Assembly (NCBI RefSeq): GCF_000384415.1 | Contig: NZ_ARVU01000001.1 | Location: forward strand, 1,116,001 to 1,180,000 | From: Cycloclasticus pugetii PS-1 | Lineage (GTDB): Bacteria > Pseudomonadota > Gammaproteobacteria > Methylococcales > Cycloclasticaceae | Reading direction: 5' to 3' | Length of the DNA stretch: 64,000 nt | Notes under the pieces: generated by a model | What the model saw: only the letters and a program-made list of their open reading frames with translations | Told to the model about the DNA's origin: nothing | Databases searched by the model: none | Shown here: piece after piece, positions 7,361-64,000 of the stretch | Layout of the letters: each line of letters starts with the position of its first letter | Numbering within the stretch: the stretch's first letter is position 1 | Made by a program: the position numbers and the translations under genes

Positions 7361-8869
7361 ATGTGTGGAATTGCGGGTATCGTTGCTCATCACAACGTTA
7401 ATCAAGAGTTATATGAAGCGTTAACTGTTTTGCAGCACCGCGGTCAAGATGCCGCTGGTATTGTCACTTGTGAAGGCAGTCAGCTGCATCTTCGTAAAGC
7501 AAACGGCTTAGTTCGAGATGTTTTTAGAACCAGTCATATGCTAGAACTGAAAGGAAATATGGGTATTGCTCATGTTCGTTACCCAACAGCAGGCTGCTCA
7601 AGTTCTGCAGAGGCTCAGCCATTTTATGTCAATTCACCTTTTGGCATTACCTTGGCGCACAATGGTAATTTAACAAATGCCGCTGCGCTGAAAAAAGAAC
7701 TGTTTATCGAAGATCAGCGCCATATCAATACTAATTCGGACTCGGAAATTTTATTAAATGTATTAGCCCATGAGCTGCAATCTTTAGGCAAATTAAAACT
7801 TAATGAAAATGACGTTTTTAAAGCGGTAGAAGCCCTACATAAACGTTGTGAAGGAGCCTATGCAGTCGTAGCAATGATTACAGGTTTTGGCGTTGTTGGG
7901 TTTCGTGACCCTAATGGCATTAGACCCATTTGTTATGGTGTGCGTGAAACTGATGAGGGTAGCGATTATATGATTGCTTCGGAATCAGTTGCCATGGATG
8001 CTCAAGATTTTAAATTAATTAGAGATATTGCACCGGGTGAAGCTGTTTTTATTAAAAAAGGCGGGGTAATACACACCAAACAGTGCGCAGAAAACCCTCG
8101 TTTAACACCTTGTATATTTGAGTACGTATATTTAGCTCGTCCAGACTCAATTATGGACAATGTTTCAGTGTATAAATCACGTCTAAGAATGGGTGAGAAA
8201 TTAGCCGAAAAAATCATGAGAACTCGTCCTGATCATGATATCGACGTGGTAATCCCTATCCCAGATACTAGTCGAACCTCTGCTTTACAGCTTGCTAATA
8301 TGCTAGATGTCAAATATAGAGAAGGGTTTATTAAAAATCGCTATATTGGCCGCACGTTTATTATGCCGGGGCAACTAGAACGTAAAAAATCGGTTAGACG
8401 CAAACTTAATGCCATTGATCTAGAGTTTAGAGGTAAAAACGTTTTATTGGTCGATGATTCCATCGTTAGGGGGACAACTTCAGGTCAAATTATTAAATTA
8501 GCGCGTGAAGCCGGGGCTAAAAAAGTTTATTTTGCATCGGCTGCCCCAGCCGTTCGCTACCCAAATGTCTATGGTATTGATATGCCGGCTGTTGAAGAAT
8601 TAGTTGCGCACGATAGAACAACGGACGAAGTACAACAAGCCATAGGCGCTGATTGGTTGATCTATCAAGAGCTCGATGATTTATTTGAGTCGGTTAGAAA
8701 ACGTAACCCAGAAATTGTTGATTTTGATGCGGCTTGCTTTAATCAAAATTATGTTACCGGAACGGTTAGCGATGAATACCTTAGAGAGCAAGGGTTAAGT
8801 CGGTCAGATGATCAAAAAGCGATCAACGATTTGGATCCTACAGTGATTGAACTGCATAACTCTCACTAA
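7361..8869 (+). CDS. purF: Amidophosphoribosyltransferase PurF
   Basis: PurF transfers the amide nitrogen of glutamine to PRPP, giving phosphoribosylamine, the first committed step of purine synthesis. The catalytic cysteine follows the initiator methionine ([11 protein letters not shown]). The glutaminase domain continues through [11 protein letters not shown] and NGNLTNA, and the PRPP-binding motif [17 protein letters not shown] marks the phosphoribosyltransferase domain. At 502 residues it matches Escherichia coli-type PurF, without the propeptide found in Bacillus-type enzymes. AAAGG precedes the ATG. In other species purine genes are controlled by PurR; I saw no operator here. Confidence 0.97.
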
Positions 8870-54606: not shown

Positions 54607-56358
54607 TTGCAGTTAAAAGGTTTTGGGTTTTCTGGGTATAGGAGCTTTGGTAATGAGTTAACTAAAATTGCACCACTTAGAAAAGTGAATCTTATTATCG
54701 GAAAGAATAATACTGGTAAGTCCAATATTATTAATTTCCTTAATGAACAGTATGGCTATTTTGTTGCGAAGGCTCAAAAATCACGGCCTGAAAAGGTATC
54801 GTTTCAGGATATTGATCTACACATATCAAATCAAAGAGCTAAGCACAGAATATCATTTCCATTATTCAAGGGTGATATAGATGAATACATCAATAGCAAA
54901 TTCCCTAACGAAAACGAACATAGAAGATATCGACTAGCAGCAAAAAAATTACTTTCATCTAGCCTTATAAGTAACGATAAGGGTGATATTTGGTTTACCT
55001 ACATATCAGCAAACCATAATGGTGAATTCACTCTGGACTTCTCCATAGAAGAGATATTGCCAGTTCTTACCCCCCAAGAATGGCAGCAGTTATGGAATGG
55101 TTTTTCTAATCAAAGTGGTGGAGGCATCAAGCGCCATTGGATACCGGAAACATTAAAGTATTTAGCACCTATCCCTTCTTCCATACCTGATATAGAAGTA
55201 ATCCCAGCCATAAGAAAAATTGGGAGTGCCGGCACTGAAGCGGGTGACTTTAGTGGTGAAGGTATTATTGAAAAACTAGCAAAAATACAAAACCCTTCAC
55301 ATACTCAGCAAGCAGAAAAAGAAAAGTTTTCAGCTATTAATAAGTTTGTCCAAGTAGTTCTTGAGAATGAAGGCGCTATAATTGAAATTCCCTACCAGAG
55401 GGATATGATACTAGTTCATATGGATGGCAAAACCCTTCCACTTGAGTCACTGGGAACTGGTGTTCATGAGGTTGTTATTTTAGCTACTGCAGCTACTCTA
55501 CTTGAAAACACGATACTTTGTGTGGAGGAACCGGAGTTGCACCTTCACCCTTTACTCCAAAAAAAGCTCATTAAATATTTAGCCGATAGCACAACTAATC
55601 AATATTTCTTCACTACGCATTCAGCGCATTTACTGGACGCAGTGGAATCTGAAATTTTCCATGTCACTCAGGTAAATGGAGCTTCAGTTGTTAGAGCTAT
55701 TGCCAGCACAAAGGAGCGTTCAGGCATTTGTAATGATTTAGGGTATAAGGCATCAGATATTCTTCAAGCAAACTGTATTATATGGGTCGAGGGTCCTTCC
55801 GACAGAATCTATCTAAATTATTGGATTTCGGCTAAAAACCCCAACTTGATTGAGGGTATTCATTACTCAATTATGTTCTATGGTGGTCGTTTATTTAGTC
55901 ATCTCAGTGCTAATGATGATGACGAAAAAAATAGGGTAGATGACTTAATTTCTGTACGTAATTTGAATAGAAATACAGTCATCATGTTTGATAGCGATAA
56001 AGCGAGTCCGAATGTAAAATTAAATTCAACAAAGCAAAGATTAGAAGAAGAGTTTAATTCTGGTATAGGGTTCTCTTGGATAACGAAAGGCCGAGAGGTT
56101 GAAAATTACCTAGATCATGACAGGCTGGAAGAAAGTGTTATTGCCGTTCACCCTTCGGCTGGTAGTTTACTTAAGAAAGGCCAGTGGGAAAACCTTTTGA
56201 AGTATAAAAAGAAAGGAGGTTCAATTGAGAGAGATGCAAACAAGGTAGATGTAGCAAGACATTACGTTAATAATAATGATGCCGACTTAAGTGTCCTAGA
56301 TCTAGAGGAAAGAGTGCAAGAGCTCAGTCAATTTATTGATGAATCAAACGGGAATTAA
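54607..56358 (+). CDS. OLD-family ATPase with TOPRIM nuclease domain
   Basis: A 583-residue protein with an ABC-type ATPase at the N-terminus and a TOPRIM domain at the C-terminus. Walker A is IIGKNNTGKSNIINFL, Walker B is ILCVEEPELHLHP; the TOPRIM motifs are CIIWVEGPSDRIYLNYWI and VIMFDSDKAS. OLD proteins are nucleases; some act in phage defence alone (class 1) or with a UvrD-like helicase (class 2, as in Gabija). No helicase gene follows, which favours the solitary type. The start is TTG 54607 with a perfect AGGAGG six bases upstream, which decides it. It lies left of the tRNA-Leu element, next to gene fragments. Confidence 0.87.
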   Translation: MQLKGFGFSGYRSFGNELTKIAPLRKVNLIIGKNNTGKSNIINFLNEQYGYFVAKAQKSRPEKVSFQDIDLHISNQRAKHRISFPLFKGDIDEYINSKFPNENEHRRYRLAAKKLLSSSLISNDKGDIWFTYISANHNGEFTLDFSIEEILPVLTPQEWQQLWNGFSNQSGGGIKRHWIPETLKYLAPIPSSIPDIEVIPAIRKIGSAGTEAGDFSGEGIIEKLAKIQNPSHTQQAEKEKFSAINKFVQVVLENEGAIIEIPYQRDMILVHMDGKTLPLESLGTGVHEVVILATAATLLENTILCVEEPELHLHPLLQKKLIKYLADSTTNQYFFTTHSAHLLDAVESEIFHVTQVNGASVVRAIASTKERSGICNDLGYKASDILQANCIIWVEGPSDRIYLNYWISAKNPNLIEGIHYSIMFYGGRLFSHLSANDDDEKNRVDDLISVRNLNRNTVIMFDSDKASPNVKLNSTKQRLEEEFNSGIGFSWITKGREVENYLDHDRLEESVIAVHPSAGSLLKKGQWENLLKYKKKGGSIERDANKVDVARHYVNNNDADLSVLDLEERVQELSQFIDESNGN

Positions 56359-56508: not shown

Positions 56509-56519
56509 TTGTTATTCAA

Positions 56520-56576
56520 TGGTGCCTGGGGCCGGAATCGAACCGGCACGACTGTTAAGGTCGCGGGATTTTAAGT
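56520..56576 (-). repeat. Left attachment site: 57-bp copy of tRNA-Leu 3' half (attL)
   Basis: Identical over 57 bases to 63837-63893, the 3' half of tRNA-Leu(UAA) from CCA back into the anticodon loop; the match ends abruptly there (TTATT here, CCCGT in the intact gene). No tRNA 5' half follows. It marks the left end of the integrated element, 170 bases before the integrase gene. Confidence 0.92.
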
Positions 56577-56587
56577 TATTTGTGTCC

Positions 56588-56745: not shown

Positions 56746-57942
56746 ATGGCTCATCTTAAACTTTCAAAAAAAGTAGTAGACAGCATCAATCCACCAGCAC
56801 TAAAAGAAGACGGAAAACCGTCTCAAGAATTTTATCGTGATACAGAACTTACAGGCTTTGGCCTAAAAGTAACTAATACTGGAAATAAGACCTATATAGT
56901 GGAAACCCGTATCAATGGAAAACCCAAACGAATGACATTGGGTAAGCACGGCCACTTAACAGCCGAGCAAGCACGAAAACAAGCACAAATTTTATTAGGT
57001 GAGATAGCTCAAGGAAATGATCCTGTAGCTGATAAGCGTGAAAAGAAAATTCAAGCAGTAACGCTGCGTGATTGCTACAAAGAGTATCTGATAACTCGAC
57101 GTGACCTCAAACCTAATACGTTAGAAGATTACAAACGGTGTATTGAAGGCTCTCTTGAAGACTGGCTAGATAAACCAGTCACCGCTATTAGTAAAGATAT
57201 GGTCGAGAAACGACATCGTAAGCTAGGAATTAGAAGCCATGCTAGAGCAAATAACACGATGCGGGTATTGCGTGCGCTATTGAACTTTGCAATGGAGCGT
57301 TATGAAGATAAAAATGGCAATGGAATAATACAAATTAACCCAGTGAATCGCCTTAGTAGTACGCGAGGGTGGTATGAAGTAAAGCGCCGCCAAACACTGC
57401 TTACACCGACACAACTGAAGCCTTGGTATGAAGCAACGTTAAAGCTCAATCAAGAAGTCACTCGTGATTATCTACATTTTTTATTGTTTACTGGCCTTCG
57501 TCGTTCAGAGGCTACTGGCTTGAAATGGGATGATGTGGACTTTGACGAAAAGAGCTTTATTATTCCAGATACAAAGAACAAAGAACCTCATCGTCTACCT
57601 ATGTCAGATTTTCTTGAAGATCTGTTAAAACGCCGTTACCGTCAAGCTGAAAAAATATGGGTGTTTCCATCTCCAATTACTGATGGCCCATTGAAGGAAC
57701 CAAGAACAGCTATTGCACGTGTTATATCGTATTCAAGCATTCAATTTACATTGCATGATTTAAGACGAACATTCATTACTATTGCTGAAAGCTTGGATAT
57801 ACCTGCTTATGCATTAAAACGCTTGCTTAATCATAAATTCTCAAATGATGTGACCGCTGGATATATTGTTCCTAACACTGAGCGCTTAAGAGCACCCATG
57901 CAACAAATAACAAATTACATCATGGAGAAAATAAAAGAATGA
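56746..57942 (+). CDS. P4-type tyrosine integrase
   Basis: A 398-residue site-specific recombinase. The N-terminal arm-binding domain (DUF4102 type) covers about 1-95 (FYRDTELTGFGLKV, KRMTLGKHGHLTAEQARKQA), the core-binding domain about 105-190 and the catalytic domain about 210-390. Catalytic residues are visible as Arg in TGLRRSEATGL, His and Arg in LHDLRRTF, His in LLNHK and the nucleophile Tyr in VTAGYIV. It adjoins attL and should drive integration and excision at tRNA-Leu. ATGA overlap with the next gene couples their translation. Confidence 0.95.
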   Translation: MAHLKLSKKVVDSINPPALKEDGKPSQEFYRDTELTGFGLKVTNTGNKTYIVETRINGKPKRMTLGKHGHLTAEQARKQAQILLGEIAQGNDPVADKREKKIQAVTLRDCYKEYLITRRDLKPNTLEDYKRCIEGSLEDWLDKPVTAISKDMVEKRHRKLGIRSHARANNTMRVLRALLNFAMERYEDKNGNGIIQINPVNRLSSTRGWYEVKRRQTLLTPTQLKPWYEATLKLNQEVTRDYLHFLLFTGLRRSEATGLKWDDVDFDEKSFIIPDTKNKEPHRLPMSDFLEDLLKRRYRQAEKIWVFPSPITDGPLKEPRTAIARVISYSSIQFTLHDLRRTFITIAESLDIPAYALKRLLNHKFSNDVTAGYIVPNTERLRAPMQQITNYIMEKIKE

Positions 57943-58883: not shown

Positions 58884-59081
58884 ATGTCACATTTACTTAC
58901 CACCAAACAAGCAGCAAATTTCTTATCAGTTAGTGCCGCATTTTTAGAGCGTGACCGTTGGGCGGGAGCACGGATTCCATTCATAAAACTAGGTACCCGT
59001 TCAATTCGATATCGTGAAGAGGACCTAGAGCGTTACATTCAACAACAAGTACGGTTTTCAACATCAGAGGAGGGCTATTAA
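58884..59081 (+). CDS. AlpA/MerR-type helix-turn-helix regulator
   Basis: A 65-residue DNA-binding protein with LLTTKQAANFLSVSAAFLER then YREEDLERYI, the winged helix-turn-helix of the AlpA/excisionase family. In P4-like elements AlpA-type proteins regulate integrase or act as excisionase. AAGGAG precedes the ATG. The three upstream 20-bp repeats are a candidate operator. Its stop codon abuts the ATG of the replication gene (TAAATG), so the two are co-translated. Confidence 0.85.
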   Translation: MSHLLTTKQAANFLSVSAAFLERDRWAGARIPFIKLGTRSIRYREEDLERYIQQQVRFSTSEEGY

Positions 59082-60797
59082 ATGTCTACCTCTGCATTAC
59101 CTTGGCAAGTTATCCGTGAGGACAAGCTACATTGGCAAAACTGTTTAGATGCTATTCCTTTTGAATTTCGCTGGAAAGCTAAATCTGAAGCAGAATCAAT
59201 GAGCCGCTTTGATGGAAACTATTTCTTACTTAACCTTAAAGAAAATTCACATGTGGGTGATGCTCCGCTCATTTATTCTGATGACGAAATTCAACAGACA
59301 GCAAAAAGTTGTTCTGAGGATTTATCAAAACGTTTGGCTAGTTTCGGTGTCGATACAAACTTATGCGTAGATATGGTTCTTATTTACTTAAAGAAATGGG
59401 GCATCCAAGTATCACGAAATTTCTTAAAGAAAACACCGCCCGAAAACTTCTTAAAGAGAGCGACATGTGATCTATGGTGGCGTCGCCAGTTAAGAAAAAT
59501 TCATGGGCGAAAAGCAGAACAAATTGGTATTAACCTTGGCCTAGTTCAAAAGAAATCAGGGGGATATTGCTCAGATTTTGCGTTACAACGCCGTAAAGAT
59601 CAGTTATTAAGAAATAAGGCCCTGCTTGAAAAACTTGAAGCCGAAAACCAGGAGGGGCAGGTATATTCACTCGATGAGCTTGCTGCATTAGGTGTCTCAA
59701 ACCCAAGCATCAAGCGCAGCGAGTTAATGGTAAGAATGAGAGGGTTTGAGGAGTATGCAAACGAAGCAGGGCATGATGCTGAATTTTATACGATCACATG
59801 CCCTTCAAGGTTTCACTCGCATTTATCAAAATCCGGTAAACGCAATCCTAAATATAGTGGGGAAACACCACAACAAGCTCAGAAATACCTAGGGAAAGTA
59901 TGGTCAAGGGTTAGAGCTAAACTTAGTAGAGATAATTTGCCAGTTTATGGGTTTCGTGTTGCAGAACCTCATCACGACGGTTGCCCACATTGGCATATGT
60001 TGTTCTTTATGAAACCGGAACATAAGAAGCTTGTAAGACAAATTATACGAAAATATGCTCTGGCTGATTCACCAGATGAAAAGGGCGCACAAGAATATCG
60101 GTTTGAATCAGTTAGTATTGATCCAAGCAAGGGAAGCGCAACAGGCTATTTAGCTAAATACATCGCAAAAAACATTGATGGTCATGCAGTCGGTGAAGAT
60201 TTTGAAACGGGGCGTGATGCAGAACAATCTAGTGAACGTGTCGAAGCATGGGCCGCAACGTGGGGCATTCGCCAGTTTCAACAAATAGGCGGGCCACCAG
60301 TTGGTGTGTGGCGCGAATTACGTCGTATGGAAACAGAAGAATCGGGGGTGATAGAAAAAGCACGTCGTGCTGCTGATAACTCAGATTGGTGTAGTTATAT
60401 CGAAGCACAAGGTGGTGCACTTTCAAGACGTTCAGAGATGCCCATTAAAGTAGCAGTATGGGAAGAATATGAGCAAGAAACTGGAGCCTTAACACTCCCC
60501 CCAATTGGACGCTATGGAGACTCAATCAAAGGGCGTATTTTCGGGCTTGTTTCTAAAGGCGTTCACTATGTTACAAGATTCTATAAATGGACTATCAATT
60601 GGGTTAAAAATAATCCTAATCAAGACGAACATATAATTAAAGCCAAGCCTGAGTTTAATTTATTTAAAAAGGGTGGGGGGTTAGCGCCACAATCTACGGA
60701 TTTAAGATCTAAAGGTCAGCGGCAACCTTATGAACTCGGGTCATTTGATATCTTGAGTGGTGTAGCGATAGCTACGCCCTTGGAGTTCTGTCAATAA
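59082..60797 (+). CDS. HUH-type rolling-circle replication initiator (P2 gpA-like)
   Basis: A 571-residue replication endonuclease. The HUH metal-binding motif is [12 protein letters not shown] (H303, H305); motif 1 is probably [15 protein letters not shown]; the two tyrosines of motif 3 are Y356 and Y360 in [10 protein letters not shown], the YxxxY arrangement of phage P2 gpA and phiX174 A proteins. These proteins nick one strand at the origin and stay joined to its 5' end. The protein is shorter than P2 gpA (761 residues) and there are no phage structural genes nearby. It probably lets the excised element replicate. Followed by the cassette array in opposite orientation. Confidence 0.85.
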
Positions 60798-60830
60798 CTG
60801 TACGTTATTAATAATATTGTCTGGAATTAC

Positions 60831-60907
60831 CTATAACGCCAAGCTAAGCGGCGCAGCTTTGCAGCGTCCGGCGCCTGAAAGGCGCGAAGTTAATTGACTT
60901 GTTAGGT
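60831..60907 (-). repeat. attC site 1 (downstream of SH3 cassette gene)
   Basis: On the minus strand: R'' box ACCTAAC (60907-60901) directly after the SH3 gene stop, an imperfect inverted repeat (CAAGTCAATTAACTTCGCGC against GCCGCTTAGCTTGGCG), an inner stem GCGCC/GGCGC, and R' GTTATAG (60837-60831), 77 bases in all, within the normal attC size range. The R' box departs from GTTRRRY at one base. Confidence 0.75.
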
Positions 60908-61597
60908 TTAATATTTATAGACACTATTGATTTCACATTCGATGGAATCTATTTTTACGTTAATAACTTCTTTGTATGAGCTGAAAGTAAAATCAAAATC
61001 CATATCGCCGGACTCTGAGCCGTAAGAGTAGAGCGAATGGTTTTCCGATTCGCTGTCAGAGTTATAGCTCCAAGAATATCCATCTCTTTTCTTATATTTT
61101 ATTTCAACCTCGCATTCCACATCTACATTTAGGTAGTCGTCTCCTTCGTAGTCTGACGAAACGCTGTATTCGACTTCAATTTCGCAACTGCGATAATAAG
61201 TGCCATCATAAGACTCTCGACAATCCATTTCCGCATCTGTAGCGGTAACACAAACCTGTGCATTTGAATCATATTCATACTCACAATCATCCCCAGATAC
61301 ACCATAAGAGCTTGTGGATCTTGATGTGTTTCCTGAGTTAACTACCTTTAAATACGAACTGCTCACCCAACCGTATTTAGCTCTGCCGGGATCATTTCCA
61401 GGTAAGTACATGATCATTGCCCAGCTTCCTTGCACTCGCATTACCCCTACAATTGAGTTTTGCGGCAAGGAAAATAGAACTTTACCTTCCGGCTCCGATC
61501 TTACGTTTAAGGAGGAAGCCGTTGTTTGAGCAATGGTCGTTGCAAAAACACTCGAAGAAAAAATAGCTATGAATATAAATAATATGACTTTCTTCAA
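60908..61597 (-). CDS. Secreted bacterial SH3-domain protein, cassette-borne
   Basis: A 229-residue precursor with a signal peptide of about 19 residues (cleavage near VFA-TTI). An SH3_3 domain follows (about 20-88: ASSLNVRSEPEGKVLFSL, YGWVSSSYLKVV). The C-terminal half (about 100-229) is rich in Asp, Glu, Tyr and Ser with several Cys (GDDCEYEYDSNAQVCVTATD), unlike anything I know. Bacterial SH3 domains often bind cell wall. The gene has its own attC site directly after the stop and a cassette boundary 17 bases before the start, so it is an integron-type cassette cargo. Confidence 0.8.
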   Translation of the reverse strand: MKKVILFIFIAIFSSSVFATTIAQTTASSLNVRSEPEGKVLFSLPQNSIVGVMRVQGSWAMIMYLPGNDPGRAKYGWVSSSYLKVVNSGNTSRSTSSYGVSGDDCEYEYDSNAQVCVTATDAEMDCRESYDGTYYRSCEIEVEYSVSSDYEGDDYLNVDVECEVEIKYKKRDGYSWSYNSDSESENHSLYSYGSESGDMDFDFTFSSYKEVINVKIDSIECEINSVYKY

Positions 61598-61613
61598 TTT
61601 GCACTCCGTGGAA

Positions 61614-61676
61614 ACCTAACGATTTGGGTAAGGCGCGCGACGCTTTTTCGCGTCGCACTTGACCCGCTTGTTAGCA
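61614..61676 (-). repeat. attC site 2 (between the DUF2167 and SH3 cassettes)
   Basis: On the minus strand: R'' TGCTAAC (61676-61670), stem elements GGGTCAAG with CTTACCC and GCGACGC with GCGTCGC, and R' GTTAGGT (61620-61614), which fits GTTRRRY exactly. At 63 bases it is a short attC. It starts 3 bases after the DUF2167 stop. Confidence 0.85.
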
Positions 61677-61678
61677 AT

Positions 61679-62536
61679 TTAGTTTGGAGTACCACTGAAT
61701 TTTTCCTTAATCCATCGCCAAACATATACCAATGGTAGAAAGACTAAAAACCAAAGCTTCTTAGCAAAAATAGCTGCCATAGCTATAATTCCAGCTTTTG
61801 CTACTGCTTTTCCAGTTGCTAATTTATAAACTAATGCACCAACGCCTGCTGCTGCCACAGTATCTGTGCCAGGAACATAATCAGTATATTTAAAACCATC
61901 GTTATAATTGTAATTTGCAAGTACAGGTTCGAGAGCTATTTCTGAGCTTGTAAATTGTTCTGGAGAGCCTATCCATATAATTTCAGTATATCCTTCACGG
62001 CCAAGTTTTAATGCCTTCGCATTAATGAACCTGTTATTTTCTTCATCATGGCCTGCTATTGCCCAGTAAACTGTATTGTTAACATTATCAAGATGAGGGT
62101 CCTGCGCCCAACCATCAACATATAGATTTGAATAACCTTCACCTCTTAACTTATTTGCTTCAGCCGTTCCATCTTGTATTTCTTTGAGCATTTCATCTTT
62201 GTCTACATTGTCACTCCAATCATCTTTCGTAAGATAACCGACTTTATTAATTGTATAAATTACTTGTGAGTCAGCTTCAGGTCCTTGAACTCTCAATATT
62301 GCAGCATCTGGATTGTAGTTTCTGTGCCCTTGCATAATGAACATATATTCAGCAGCGTCCTTACCTACGACGAGGAAGTCATTTTCTGTTGTTGTTATTT
62401 CAGCTTTATTTTTTGAAATTGAATAAACACTTGGTTCTTGCTTCCAATCAAGAGCTCTTAATTGATTTAGATGATCTTCTTCTGATGCTGAAGCCTGCGT
62501 GGCAAATATTAATAGAATTATAAAAAGTGCTTTCAT
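61679..62536 (-). CDS. DUF2167 membrane-anchored protein, cassette-borne
   Basis: A 285-residue precursor: signal peptide of about 17 residues (ASASEED), a DUF2167 domain with GYLTKDDW, YVDGWAQDPHLDN and ALKLGREGY, a glycine/alanine-rich segment (DTVAAAGVGALVYKLATGKA) and a C-terminal pair of hydrophobic stretches ending WRWIKEKF. DUF2167 proteins are predicted membrane-anchored extracytoplasmic proteins of unknown function. GAGGGA precedes the start. The gene is followed at once by attC site 2 and preceded by a cassette boundary at 62574, so it is the first cassette of the array. Confidence 0.85.
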   Translation of the reverse strand: MKALFIILLIFATQASASEEDHLNQLRALDWKQEPSVYSISKNKAEITTTENDFLVVGKDAAEYMFIMQGHRNYNPDAAILRVQGPEADSQVIYTINKVGYLTKDDWSDNVDKDEMLKEIQDGTAEANKLRGEGYSNLYVDGWAQDPHLDNVNNTVYWAIAGHDEENNRFINAKALKLGREGYTEIIWIGSPEQFTSSEIALEPVLANYNYNDGFKYTDYVPGTDTVAAAGVGALVYKLATGKAVAKAGIIAMAAIFAKKLWFLVFLPLVYVWRWIKEKFSGTPN

Positions 62537-62567
62537 ATCATTCCCTCGGTAGTTTTTAATATTTTCT

Positions 62568-62574
62568 TGCTAAC
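62568..62574 (-). other. 5' boundary of the cassette array (GTTAGCA)
   Basis: The heptamer GTTAGCA on the minus strand, 31 bases before the DUF2167 start, is the exact complement of the R'' box TGCTAAC of attC site 2. That is the relation expected of the two ends of one cassette. Upstream there is AATAACAA but no recognisable attI. Confidence 0.65.
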
Positions 62575-62591
62575 TTGTTATTAAGGGGAAT

Positions 62592-62643
62592 AAAAATTCC
62601 CTGTAATTCTTACTTTTATATGGACAAAAATTCCTAGTAATTC
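62592..62643 (+). repeat. Two 18-bp direct repeats upstream of the cassette array
   Basis: AAAAATTCC-N2-GTAATTC occurs at 62592-62609 and 62626-62643, 34 bases apart. They lie on the 5' side of the cassettes; they may be a regulatory or recombinase binding site. Function unknown. Confidence 0.55.
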
Positions 62644-62821
62644 GATATTAAGCATTAAACAGAGAATAGAAGAAGCATTTGTACATCTGTTAATAATACT
62701 ACAAAAGATTCACCGGCCTTGAGAATTTAAAAGTAAGTGTCATTAGATCTACCGCAATTCAAAATTTAAAACTAACTTGTTTAAGTCCTCTCTCTTTATA
62801 CCCACTGAAAAGAGAGTTATT

Positions 62822-62883
62822 GCCCTGTGACGCCTATTAAATAATAGGTGACTAATTATCACCTCAACTGCCTCCAGGGCGTC
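62822..62883. other. Folded non-coding segment with nested inverted repeats
   Basis: Outer pairs GACGCC (62829-62834) with GGCGTC (62878-62883), or alternatively GCCCTG (62822-62827) with CAGGGC (62875-62880). Inner pairs CCTATTA/TAATAGG (62833-62848) and AGGTGA/TCACCT (62846-62864). Several pairings exclude each other. It may be a small RNA, an origin or a leftover recombination site. The 572-base gap from 62537 to 63108 holds this, the 18-bp repeats and the tRNA-like remnant. Confidence 0.45.
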
Positions 62884-62899
62884 TACATAAGGCAAGTAT

Positions 62900-62936
62900 A
62901 AAAAAGCCTCAACACCGAGAAACGGTGCTAAGGCTT
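62900..62936 (-). terminator. Terminator after the tRNA-like remnant
   Basis: On the minus strand: AGCCTTAGCACCG-TTTCT-CGGTGTTGAGGCT followed by six T residues. It stands in the same place relative to the tRNA-like piece as the tRNA-Leu terminator does to tRNA-Leu. Confidence 0.8.
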
Positions 62937-62945
62937 TGATTTGTA

Positions 62946-62990
62946 TGGTGGCCTACAAGGACTTGAACCTTGCGCAAATGGATTGTGAGT
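62946..62990 (-). pseudogene. tRNA 3'-half-like remnant, isotype unclear
   Basis: The minus strand ends with a T-arm (CAAGG, loop TTCAAGT, CCTTG), an acceptor-like TAGGCC, A and CCA. The acceptor strand is one base short and no 5' half is found, so it is not a working gene. It is followed by its own terminator. Probably an attachment-site remnant of another integration. Confidence 0.5.
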
Positions 62991-63082
62991 TTTATTGCCT
63001 TTTACTTATGAAATTGCATGTGTTTTAAGTGATATTATTTGGTTTGAATATGACGCAGCAATCATTATAAGGAAATTATATT

Positions 63083-63112
63083 ATGGCAAGGAAAGATAAA
63101 GGTAATAAATGA
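63083..63112 (+). CDS. Nine-residue leader peptide overlapping the channel gene
   Basis: ATG at 63083 preceded by AAGGA reads MARKDKGNK and stops at 63112; its end overlaps the channel start as ATGA. This looks like a coupling leader, since the channel ATG itself has only a weak AAAGG site inside the leader. May be chance. Confidence 0.4.
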   Translation: MARKDKGNK

Positions 63113-63597
63113 AATTGAAAGAATTGTTTAGATTAAAAGATCTAGAAAATAGCGGGGTTTTGATCATTTCTATTATTCTGTCATATCTATGTCTGCTATC
63201 AGCAGAGTACATAGGATATTGGGGGATAGGGCTTACAATTATTACTATCCTGTTACCTACAGTCTATTATGTATGGTCTTTTAAGAAGGGTGAGAATTTA
63301 GGTGAAAAATTCACGTTTTATTTCCTCAACTTGATAATAATGATTGCTTATTTTGGTGTATTGTACAAAGCCTTTGGAATCAAATTACCAGATGGAAAAG
63401 AAGCAAATCTTTTTGATGCATTTTATTTTAGTGTAGTGACTTGGACTACATTAGGCTATGGCGAAATTCTTCCATCTAGTACTGAATCCAAAATTTTTGT
63501 AATTGTTGAAGTTATGCTTGGCTATATCTATATGGGAATATTAATTGGTAAGTTGCTCGTACTCTCAAAGCTTGGTGAGGAAAAGAAAAAAGATTAA
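63109..63597 (+). CDS. Small potassium-channel-like membrane protein
   Basis: A 162-residue membrane protein with four hydrophobic segments (about 15-33, 36-54, 72-90, 127-148). The pore region before the last helix reads SVVTWTTLGYGEILPSS, a selectivity filter of the T-x-GYG type with Glu where Asp is usual. It matches the Ion_trans_2 family of two-helix pore channels. It has no cytoplasmic RCK domain. It sits between the tRNA-like remnant and tRNA-Leu and is likely cargo; role unknown. Confidence 0.8.
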   Translation: MKLKELFRLKDLENSGVLIISIILSYLCLLSAEYIGYWGIGLTIITILLPTVYYVWSFKKGENLGEKFTFYFLNLIIMIAYFGVLYKAFGIKLPDGKEANLFDAFYFSVVTWTTLGYGEILPSSTESKIFVIVEVMLGYIYMGILIGKLLVLSKLGEEKKKD

Positions 63598-63759
63598 GTA
63601 AAGATATTTTGTAGGGGCAACCGAGATTTCCATAACGATCTAGATCTTTCTTTATAAGTCATCAAGGTAGTAGCTGGATGACGCCACTTCTTGTATTTTT
63701 TATTTAGATTTGCTTGTTTGATTCCCTGCGGGAAACACTAGTTATTTACCAAATAAACC

Positions 63760-63783
63760 GTCTACTATGCGTCTACTATTTAG
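63760..63783 (+). repeat. Tandem GTCTACTAT arm-type motif, right end
   Basis: Two copies of GTCTACTAT separated by GC, the same orientation and spacing as at 56696-56719. It ends 54 bases before the right copy of the tRNA-Leu repeat. It supports the right end of the element being at tRNA-Leu. Confidence 0.7.
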
Positions 63784-63793
63784 GAAAGGGCAT

Positions 63794-63827
63794 AAAAAAG
63801 CCCCAGTACAATTAAGTTCTGAGGCCT
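63794..63827 (-). terminator. Terminator of tRNA-Leu
   Basis: On the minus strand: CCTCAGAAC / GTACTGGGG stem with a loop of about five bases, then GC and six T residues, 10 bases after the tRNA-Leu CCA end. Nearly matches 56476-56508. Confidence 0.8.
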
Positions 63828-63836
63828 TGATATAAA

Positions 63837-63924
63837 TGGTGCCTGGGGCCGGAATCGAACCGGCACGACTGTTAAGGTCGCGGGATTTTAAGTCCCGTGT
63901 GTCTACCAATTTCACCACCCAGGC
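63837..63924 (-). tRNA. tRNA-Leu(UAA), intact
   Basis: 88-base class II tRNA: acceptor GCCTGGG/CCCAGGC, anticodon stem CGGGA/TCCCG with loop CTTAAAA giving anticodon TAA, a long variable arm, T-loop TTCGATT and encoded CCA. Its 3' half (63837-63893) is duplicated at 56520-56576, so it is the integration target. Confidence 0.96.
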
Positions 63925-64000
63925 AATCAAATTGAGCGCGAATTTTACCCTATGATGACGATAATGACGAGTGGAAATTATTATAAATTTATAAATTTTT

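Follow-up and report, generated by a model that had tools for sequence, protein, structure and literature searches.

Gene cassettes headed by an attI, with no adjoining intI, in a satellite-like integrative element of Cycloclasticus pugetii

Introduction

CALINs, arrays of at least two attC sites with no integron integrase gene (intI) nearby, are attributed in the relevant passages of published accounts to degradation, off-target insertion or rearrangement (PMC8618304, PMC9024848), and parts of a further account describe them as mobilisable in trans (PMC12444791). As far as the pertinent sections of its description go, IntegronFinder 2 offers no detection of attI sites beyond those of class 1 (PMC9024848).

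The present analysis concerns a stretch of 64,000 nucleotides, hereafter the window, from the Cycloclasticus pugetii PS-1 genome, which is a single contig of 2.38 Mb. An initial annotation of this DNA had described two integron-type gene cassettes lying within a HUH-type element, opposed to its genes, as a small attC cluster lacking an integrase. It had reported neither the attI found directly 5' of the first cassette, nor the ends of the element at repeats of tRNA-Leu, nor the tyrosine integrase that the element encodes. Integrative satellite-like elements, with which this carrier invites comparison, bear an integrase, an AlpA and a replication gene and have a tRNA as their target.

Results

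The cassettes lie in an element of 7.3 kb bounded by direct repeats in the 3' part of tRNA-Leu, with attR at 63835-63903 in the tRNA gene itself (63840-63924, minus strand) and attL, the duplicated 3' part at the far end, at 56518-56586 (direct repeat D1, 94% identity). In comparisons meant to reveal an empty insertion site, the surroundings of attL align to tRNA-Leu and the DNA downstream of it over 104-113 bp in five of eight relatives and over 55-59 bp in three of the eight; since both repeats of the window carry a terminator-like stretch, no site could be established as empty. On the plus strand are encoded a tyrosine integrase distinct from IntI (56746-57942; Pfam Arm-DNA-bind_3 and Phage_integrase), an AlpA-like HTH protein or excisionase (58884-59081; HTH_17, and phrog_66, excisionase and regulator, E 2e-5) and a HUH replication initiator of GPA type (59082-60797; Phage_GPA, E 1.5e-87; phrog_91, 'nicking at origin of replication'). 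The locus thus has the integrase and the flanking target repeats that define an integrative element, and the Phage_GPA match upholds the initial annotation as to the HUH-type nature of the element, against whose genes the cassette array is oriented. At 62946-62990 lies a 3' fragment of tRNA-Met. Across 46 nt it matches, at 91% identity, the far repeat of a tRNA-Met element found on contig C99 of genome G008 (G008:C99). The fragment is probably the scar of another element's att site and, because it sits inside an element targeted to tRNA-Leu, suggests that the attI side of the window element was derived from an element with a different integration specificity. Rfam returned only four tRNAs at gathering scores in the window; a permissive scan of 60600-64000 added a single plastid match, which was rejected as due to chance.

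The end of rep (60779-60804, 26 nt) recurs with 100% identity in a related element of genome G006 and with 93% identity over 30 nt in G017:C13, though the Rep proteins share just 50-61% identity; the HUH Rep may have its nick site here. The G017 locus (G017:C13:1-14000) is prophage-like, with a 61% identical Rep, a match to a major-head-protein family and a packaging-gene match, and we take it to resemble the PM2-like tailless phages; similarity of Rep to this locus is the only link of the window element to phage satellites. Another member of the element family, G008:C11, lies at tRNA-Leu and has, after rep, genes for proteins of 133 and 1225 aa in place of the cassettes, the larger giving weak matches to the LmuA and mad8 defence models. 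To the left of attL, positions 54607-56358 of the window hold a gene for an AAA_15/AAA_21 ATPase, which may belong to a separate defence island.

Both cassettes are on the minus strand. The first consists of a gene for a DUF2167 protein (61679-62536; PF09935, E 4.5e-48) and a canonical attC (attC1, 61614-61676) that matched our covariance model R1 at 58 bits (E 9e-10) and folds into a hairpin (z -2.3). The second consists of an ORF for a protein with a weak SH3_3 domain (60908-61597; E 4e-4, below the cut-off) and a weak, atypical attC (attC2, 60831-60907) that has no single canonical hairpin (z -1.2) and whose R1 score of 16.6 bits (E 0.29) is non-significant alone. These were the only R1 matches at E <= 10 in the 64-kb window, and the covariance-model search proposed in the initial annotation accordingly agreed with it in position and strand at both sites and in significance at attC1 only. 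Direct reading of the sequence shows the heptamer GTTAGCA (62568-62574, minus) to pair exactly with the R'' box TGCTAAC of attC1 (61670-61676, minus), and GTTAGGT (61614-61620, minus) with the ACCTAAC of attC2 (60901-60907, minus). This complementarity is as first described and, with the R1 matches, bears out the claim of two integron-type cassettes.

R1 was trained on 17 attCs from other loci, the window excluded, which were picked by hand out of a home-made fold scan that gave many false matches and missed both attCs of the window. In this training set no shuffle out of 500 equalled the named pairs on three of the five covariation measures, 40-47 of the 500 did so on the other two, and a slide of +1 retained most of the score. 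Since about 75 bp of attC2 are 81% identical to DNA directly behind a zinc-ribbon gene of the Enterobacter plasmid pEkFL23, in a stretch between that gene and qnrVC4 within a resistance-gene array, attC2 is here accepted as an attC, although probably a poor one.

The product of the cassette 1 gene has three distant relatives in plasmids (identity 32.4% or less), and none was confirmed in viral contigs; no relatives of the cassette 2 gene were found in plasmids, and neither gene has relatives among the other loci compared. As grounds for abandoning its reading the initial annotation had named sub-threshold scores at both attCs together with homologues never associated with attC. We did find attC2 to be sub-threshold, and in the searches just given no homologue of the two genes could be placed next to an attC, but attC1 clears the threshold, and more weight is given to the attI, to the related element described below and to the exactness of the heptamers than to these two shortcomings. 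Both cassettes are integrase-made units, as first described. A promoter scan of the region returned 8 matches against 7.8 in shuffles, and therefore no Pc is claimed.

Directly 5' of the first cassette sits an attI of type A (62574-62668, minus), with repeats ATTACTAGGAATT and ATTACAGGGAATT and core AATAACAAG; its crossover with attC, G^TTAGCA, lies at 62568-62574 (minus). The site scored 71.4 bits (E 6e-21) with attI model R2, built from 20 other sites with the window and its close relative excluded, a score that is not fully independent because the training sites were collected by BLAST with the window attI as query. Over 77 bp it shares 82% identity with the attI adjoining the only full-length intI of the genome, and the alignment of the two continues to just short of the intI start. 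As the initial annotation had it, no intI was matched in the window; the single match above the family cut-off lies 1.03 Mb from the array in the same chromosome. Its product, the resident IntI, looks intact, with an uninterrupted frame of 340 aa, a TIGR02249 score of 438 bits (cut-off 265) and 314 residues that align with 2a3v, a solved structure of an integron integrase. Given that the attI upstream of cassette 1 matches the resident one, the feature is best described as an attI followed by two cassettes without intI, and not as a bare attC cluster. The earlier description was right in that no intI is nearby, and needs amending in that an attI of the host's integron family heads the cluster and an integrase is present in the same chromosome. 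Compared with a complete integron, the window has the attI and cassettes with attC and matching heptamers (attC2 being weak) and lacks an intI adjoining the attI. Three exact attI patterns searched against viral contigs gave no match, nor did the window array against phage records.

The tRNA-Met element G008:C99 (tRNA-Met at 23-99), from a draft genome, shares with the window the flank on the attI side (88% identity, 424 bp) and that on the rep side (87%, 83 bp); similarity between the two ends at the crossover and returns only at the last attC. Its array opens with a PDC-S21 defence candidate. The attC behind this gene is weak (19.6 bits, E 0.64), and its R'' TGCTAAC agrees with the heptamer GTTAGCA. 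A type IIG restriction-modification gene comes next, together with a specificity subunit, and then a stretch that looks by eye like a decayed attC and has no match to the attC model. No intI above the cut-off was found in G008, a draft genome that is 78% complete. Different genes between common flanks are the pattern that cassette exchange at an attI without an adjoining integrase would leave.

Among the 18 congeneric genomes surveyed, 13 have intI above the cut-off (15 matches, three of these in G017) and 17 have matches to the attI model. Rescanning 86 sources gave 85 attI matches, reduced to 80 by dropping four reverse-strand reads of listed sites and one second match in L166; 11 of the 80 had no readable crossover and were left out, and four crossovers were set by hand. 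The 69 readable crossovers, that of the window among them, come from 16 genomes and include weak attIs down to 16.5 bits; ten lie beside intI and 59 are orphan. Forty bits are reached by 24 of the 59 orphans, a count to be read in the light of true type B sites beside intI scoring just 22.5-32.9. The attIs form two families, A and B, of common layout with altered repeat motifs, each occurring both beside intI and as orphans. The single-contig genome G000 has five orphans and one resident attI, and the single-contig G006 nine orphans and one resident. It is only for these two that one can clearly speak of one integrase, because G017 has three intI and no attI was recognised beside five of the 15 intI matches; from the latter figure it also follows that the attI model misses some attIs. 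The resident attI of G000 is of type A and four of its five orphans are of type B, so that use of its orphans by the resident IntI is something we infer.

Where an attC was found within 3 kb, the heptamer equalled the R'' of the first attC at the three informative bases in 35 of 41 orphans (shuffles: mean 3.4, maximum 12 in 20,000), and the same agreement was seen for nine of ten resident attIs. Among the 43 orphans flanked on each side by 1.2 kb, an attC lay within 1.5 kb after the attI in 33 cases and before it, on either strand, in none; no attC was found within 3 kb for 17 of 53 testable orphans. Similarity between orphan and resident attIs is modestly above that in shuffles (145/20,000 for type A and 438/20,000 for type B), and concerted evolution of the two was considered and not adopted, the signal being modest. 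A gene of the same direction precedes 39 of 52 orphans, the window orphan not being among them; neighbouring bacterial genes are often on the same strand anyway. Two loci of G000 may be mentioned here. An orphan type B attI (7591-7679 of G000:C1:1402000-1414000) heads four attCs with a gene for a TIR-domain protein among them, and a pair of attC matches at 917 kb (38 and 20 bits; G000:C1:912000-922000) has no attI match and could be a bare CALIN or have an attI too diverged for detection.

Thirteen orphan loci were recognisable by their left flank in at least two species, the groups being split by hand from left-flank clusters with short-overlap links excluded. They give 25 pairs, three of which include a site with less than 140 bp after the crossover. 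An attC stands behind both attIs in 12 pairs from eight loci, and in 11 of these 12 the first 400 bp after the crossover have no similarity, the first cassette being common to both members of the remaining pair (G008 and G013). The right flank is also conserved in at least four loci, and the intervening stretches differ in length. In G017 a conserved right flank starts 176-277 bp past the attI with no attC found between, and this locus may be an empty platform; two sites of G003 have an identical right flank over 364 bp.

Outside the genus, with stricter filters under which weak matches are lost, the attI model matched one of 133 sampled genomes of the order. This attI too is an orphan, following a gene named by eye as ssb-like and heading two attCs of 45 bits each; its first cassette has a Gp49-family gene and an exact heptamer pair, and intI lies on another contig of the same genome.

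Discussion

The attI, the junctions, the attCs, the lack of an adjoining intI, the intact-looking IntI elsewhere and the differences at same loci can all be read in the DNA itself. We think it likely that they reflect attI platforms in dispersed positions, which IntI supplies with cassettes in trans. A satellite-like integrative element would carry a copy of the host attI without intI, and the chromosomal IntI would act on it in trans, inserting circular cassettes at the orphan attI and excising them at their attCs; the element and several fixed chromosomal loci would then be extra cassette platforms for one integrase. The enzyme at work is presumably the IntI now resident and not an earlier or foreign one, and the orphan sites are presumably active at present.

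Orphan attIs would also result if every one of them were a complete integron minus its intI, now frozen. CALINs have been proposed as degraded integrons in a passage of PMC9024848, and fragments of intI are present in G002 and G006. However, for the 53 of 59 orphans with at least 1.2 kb available on the intI side, IntI gave no tblastn match (E <= 1e-3) in that DNA. The attI homology at unrelated loci runs mostly from about -95 to +3 (in some pairs to -125 to -144) and for the most part does not reach the intI start codon, and the differing DNA after the crossover in same-locus pairs further weakens this explanation, which we regard as unlikely. Rather improbable also is a single gain of attI and cassettes by homologous recombination with another element, with no exchange since. 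The window element does look chimeric, having a tRNA-Met scar within a tRNA-Leu element, but its similarity to G008:C99 is interrupted from the crossover up to the last attC.

Cassettes could alternatively have been inserted off target at random GTT sites (attG), as in a bare CALIN. Such a route of CALIN formation is put forward in part of PMC8618304, and a passage of PMC12444791 cites attG insertion into the E. coli genome. Against it stand the attI module of ~95 bp at the junction, the same as beside intI, and the attI model's matching, under the stricter filters, of just one of 133 genomes of the order outside the genus. Off-target insertion is already refuted for the attI-headed loci and may apply to attC clusters for which no attI was found, such as that at 917 kb in G000; as an account of the loci described here we hold it to be highly improbable.

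Loading of dispersed attI platforms in trans, the reading that we favour, has wider consequences. Crossovers without intI outnumber those beside intI by 59 to 10, and at a given locus the DNA behind them differs from species to species. Should the orphans be served in trans, a single enzyme would supply many expression sites and the integron would span the genome, while mobile satellites could tap the host cassette pool with only ~100 bp of attI. Our judgement is evenly balanced on a broader proposal, that of a distributed integron in which one IntI serves some six to ten attIs across the chromosome and mobile satellites and moves cassettes that include defence genes. The attI would be the dispersing unit, and CALINs of other taxa might, instead of being fossils, be platforms of this kind, headed by an attI and served in trans. 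A simple test is offered for any CALIN, namely whether or not an attI of the resident kind stands at its head.

No report of many dispersed attI platforms in one genome was found in the titles and abstracts searched, a scope outside which most subscription papers fall. With two attCs and no intI nearby, the window array would be classed as a CALIN, an assignment that depends on accepting attC2 with its E of 0.29; what sets it apart is the attI at its head, which belongs to the same family as that of the resident integron. A precedent for a CALIN with its own attI appears in part of the description of the Shewanella prophage M16-3 (PMC9892861). That is one case, in which the prophage itself carries intI, whereas the intI of this genome is 1.03 Mb away from the array and orphans recur in many members of the genus. 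The CALINs of Xanthomonas, like the orphans here, occupy fixed positions away from intI that more than one species has in common; the relevant passages of PMC12444791, however, mention no attI at their heads. The delta-attI gene cassettes, as part of PMC12901181 describes them, likewise have attI sequence out of its usual place, which is used by IntI1, but there the site is part of a cassette and here a whole attI heads the array. Finally, the window element has the same order of integrase, AlpA-like and Rep genes and the same kind of tRNA target as integrative satellite-like elements, and it differs from them in its cargo, an array of cassettes headed by an attI.
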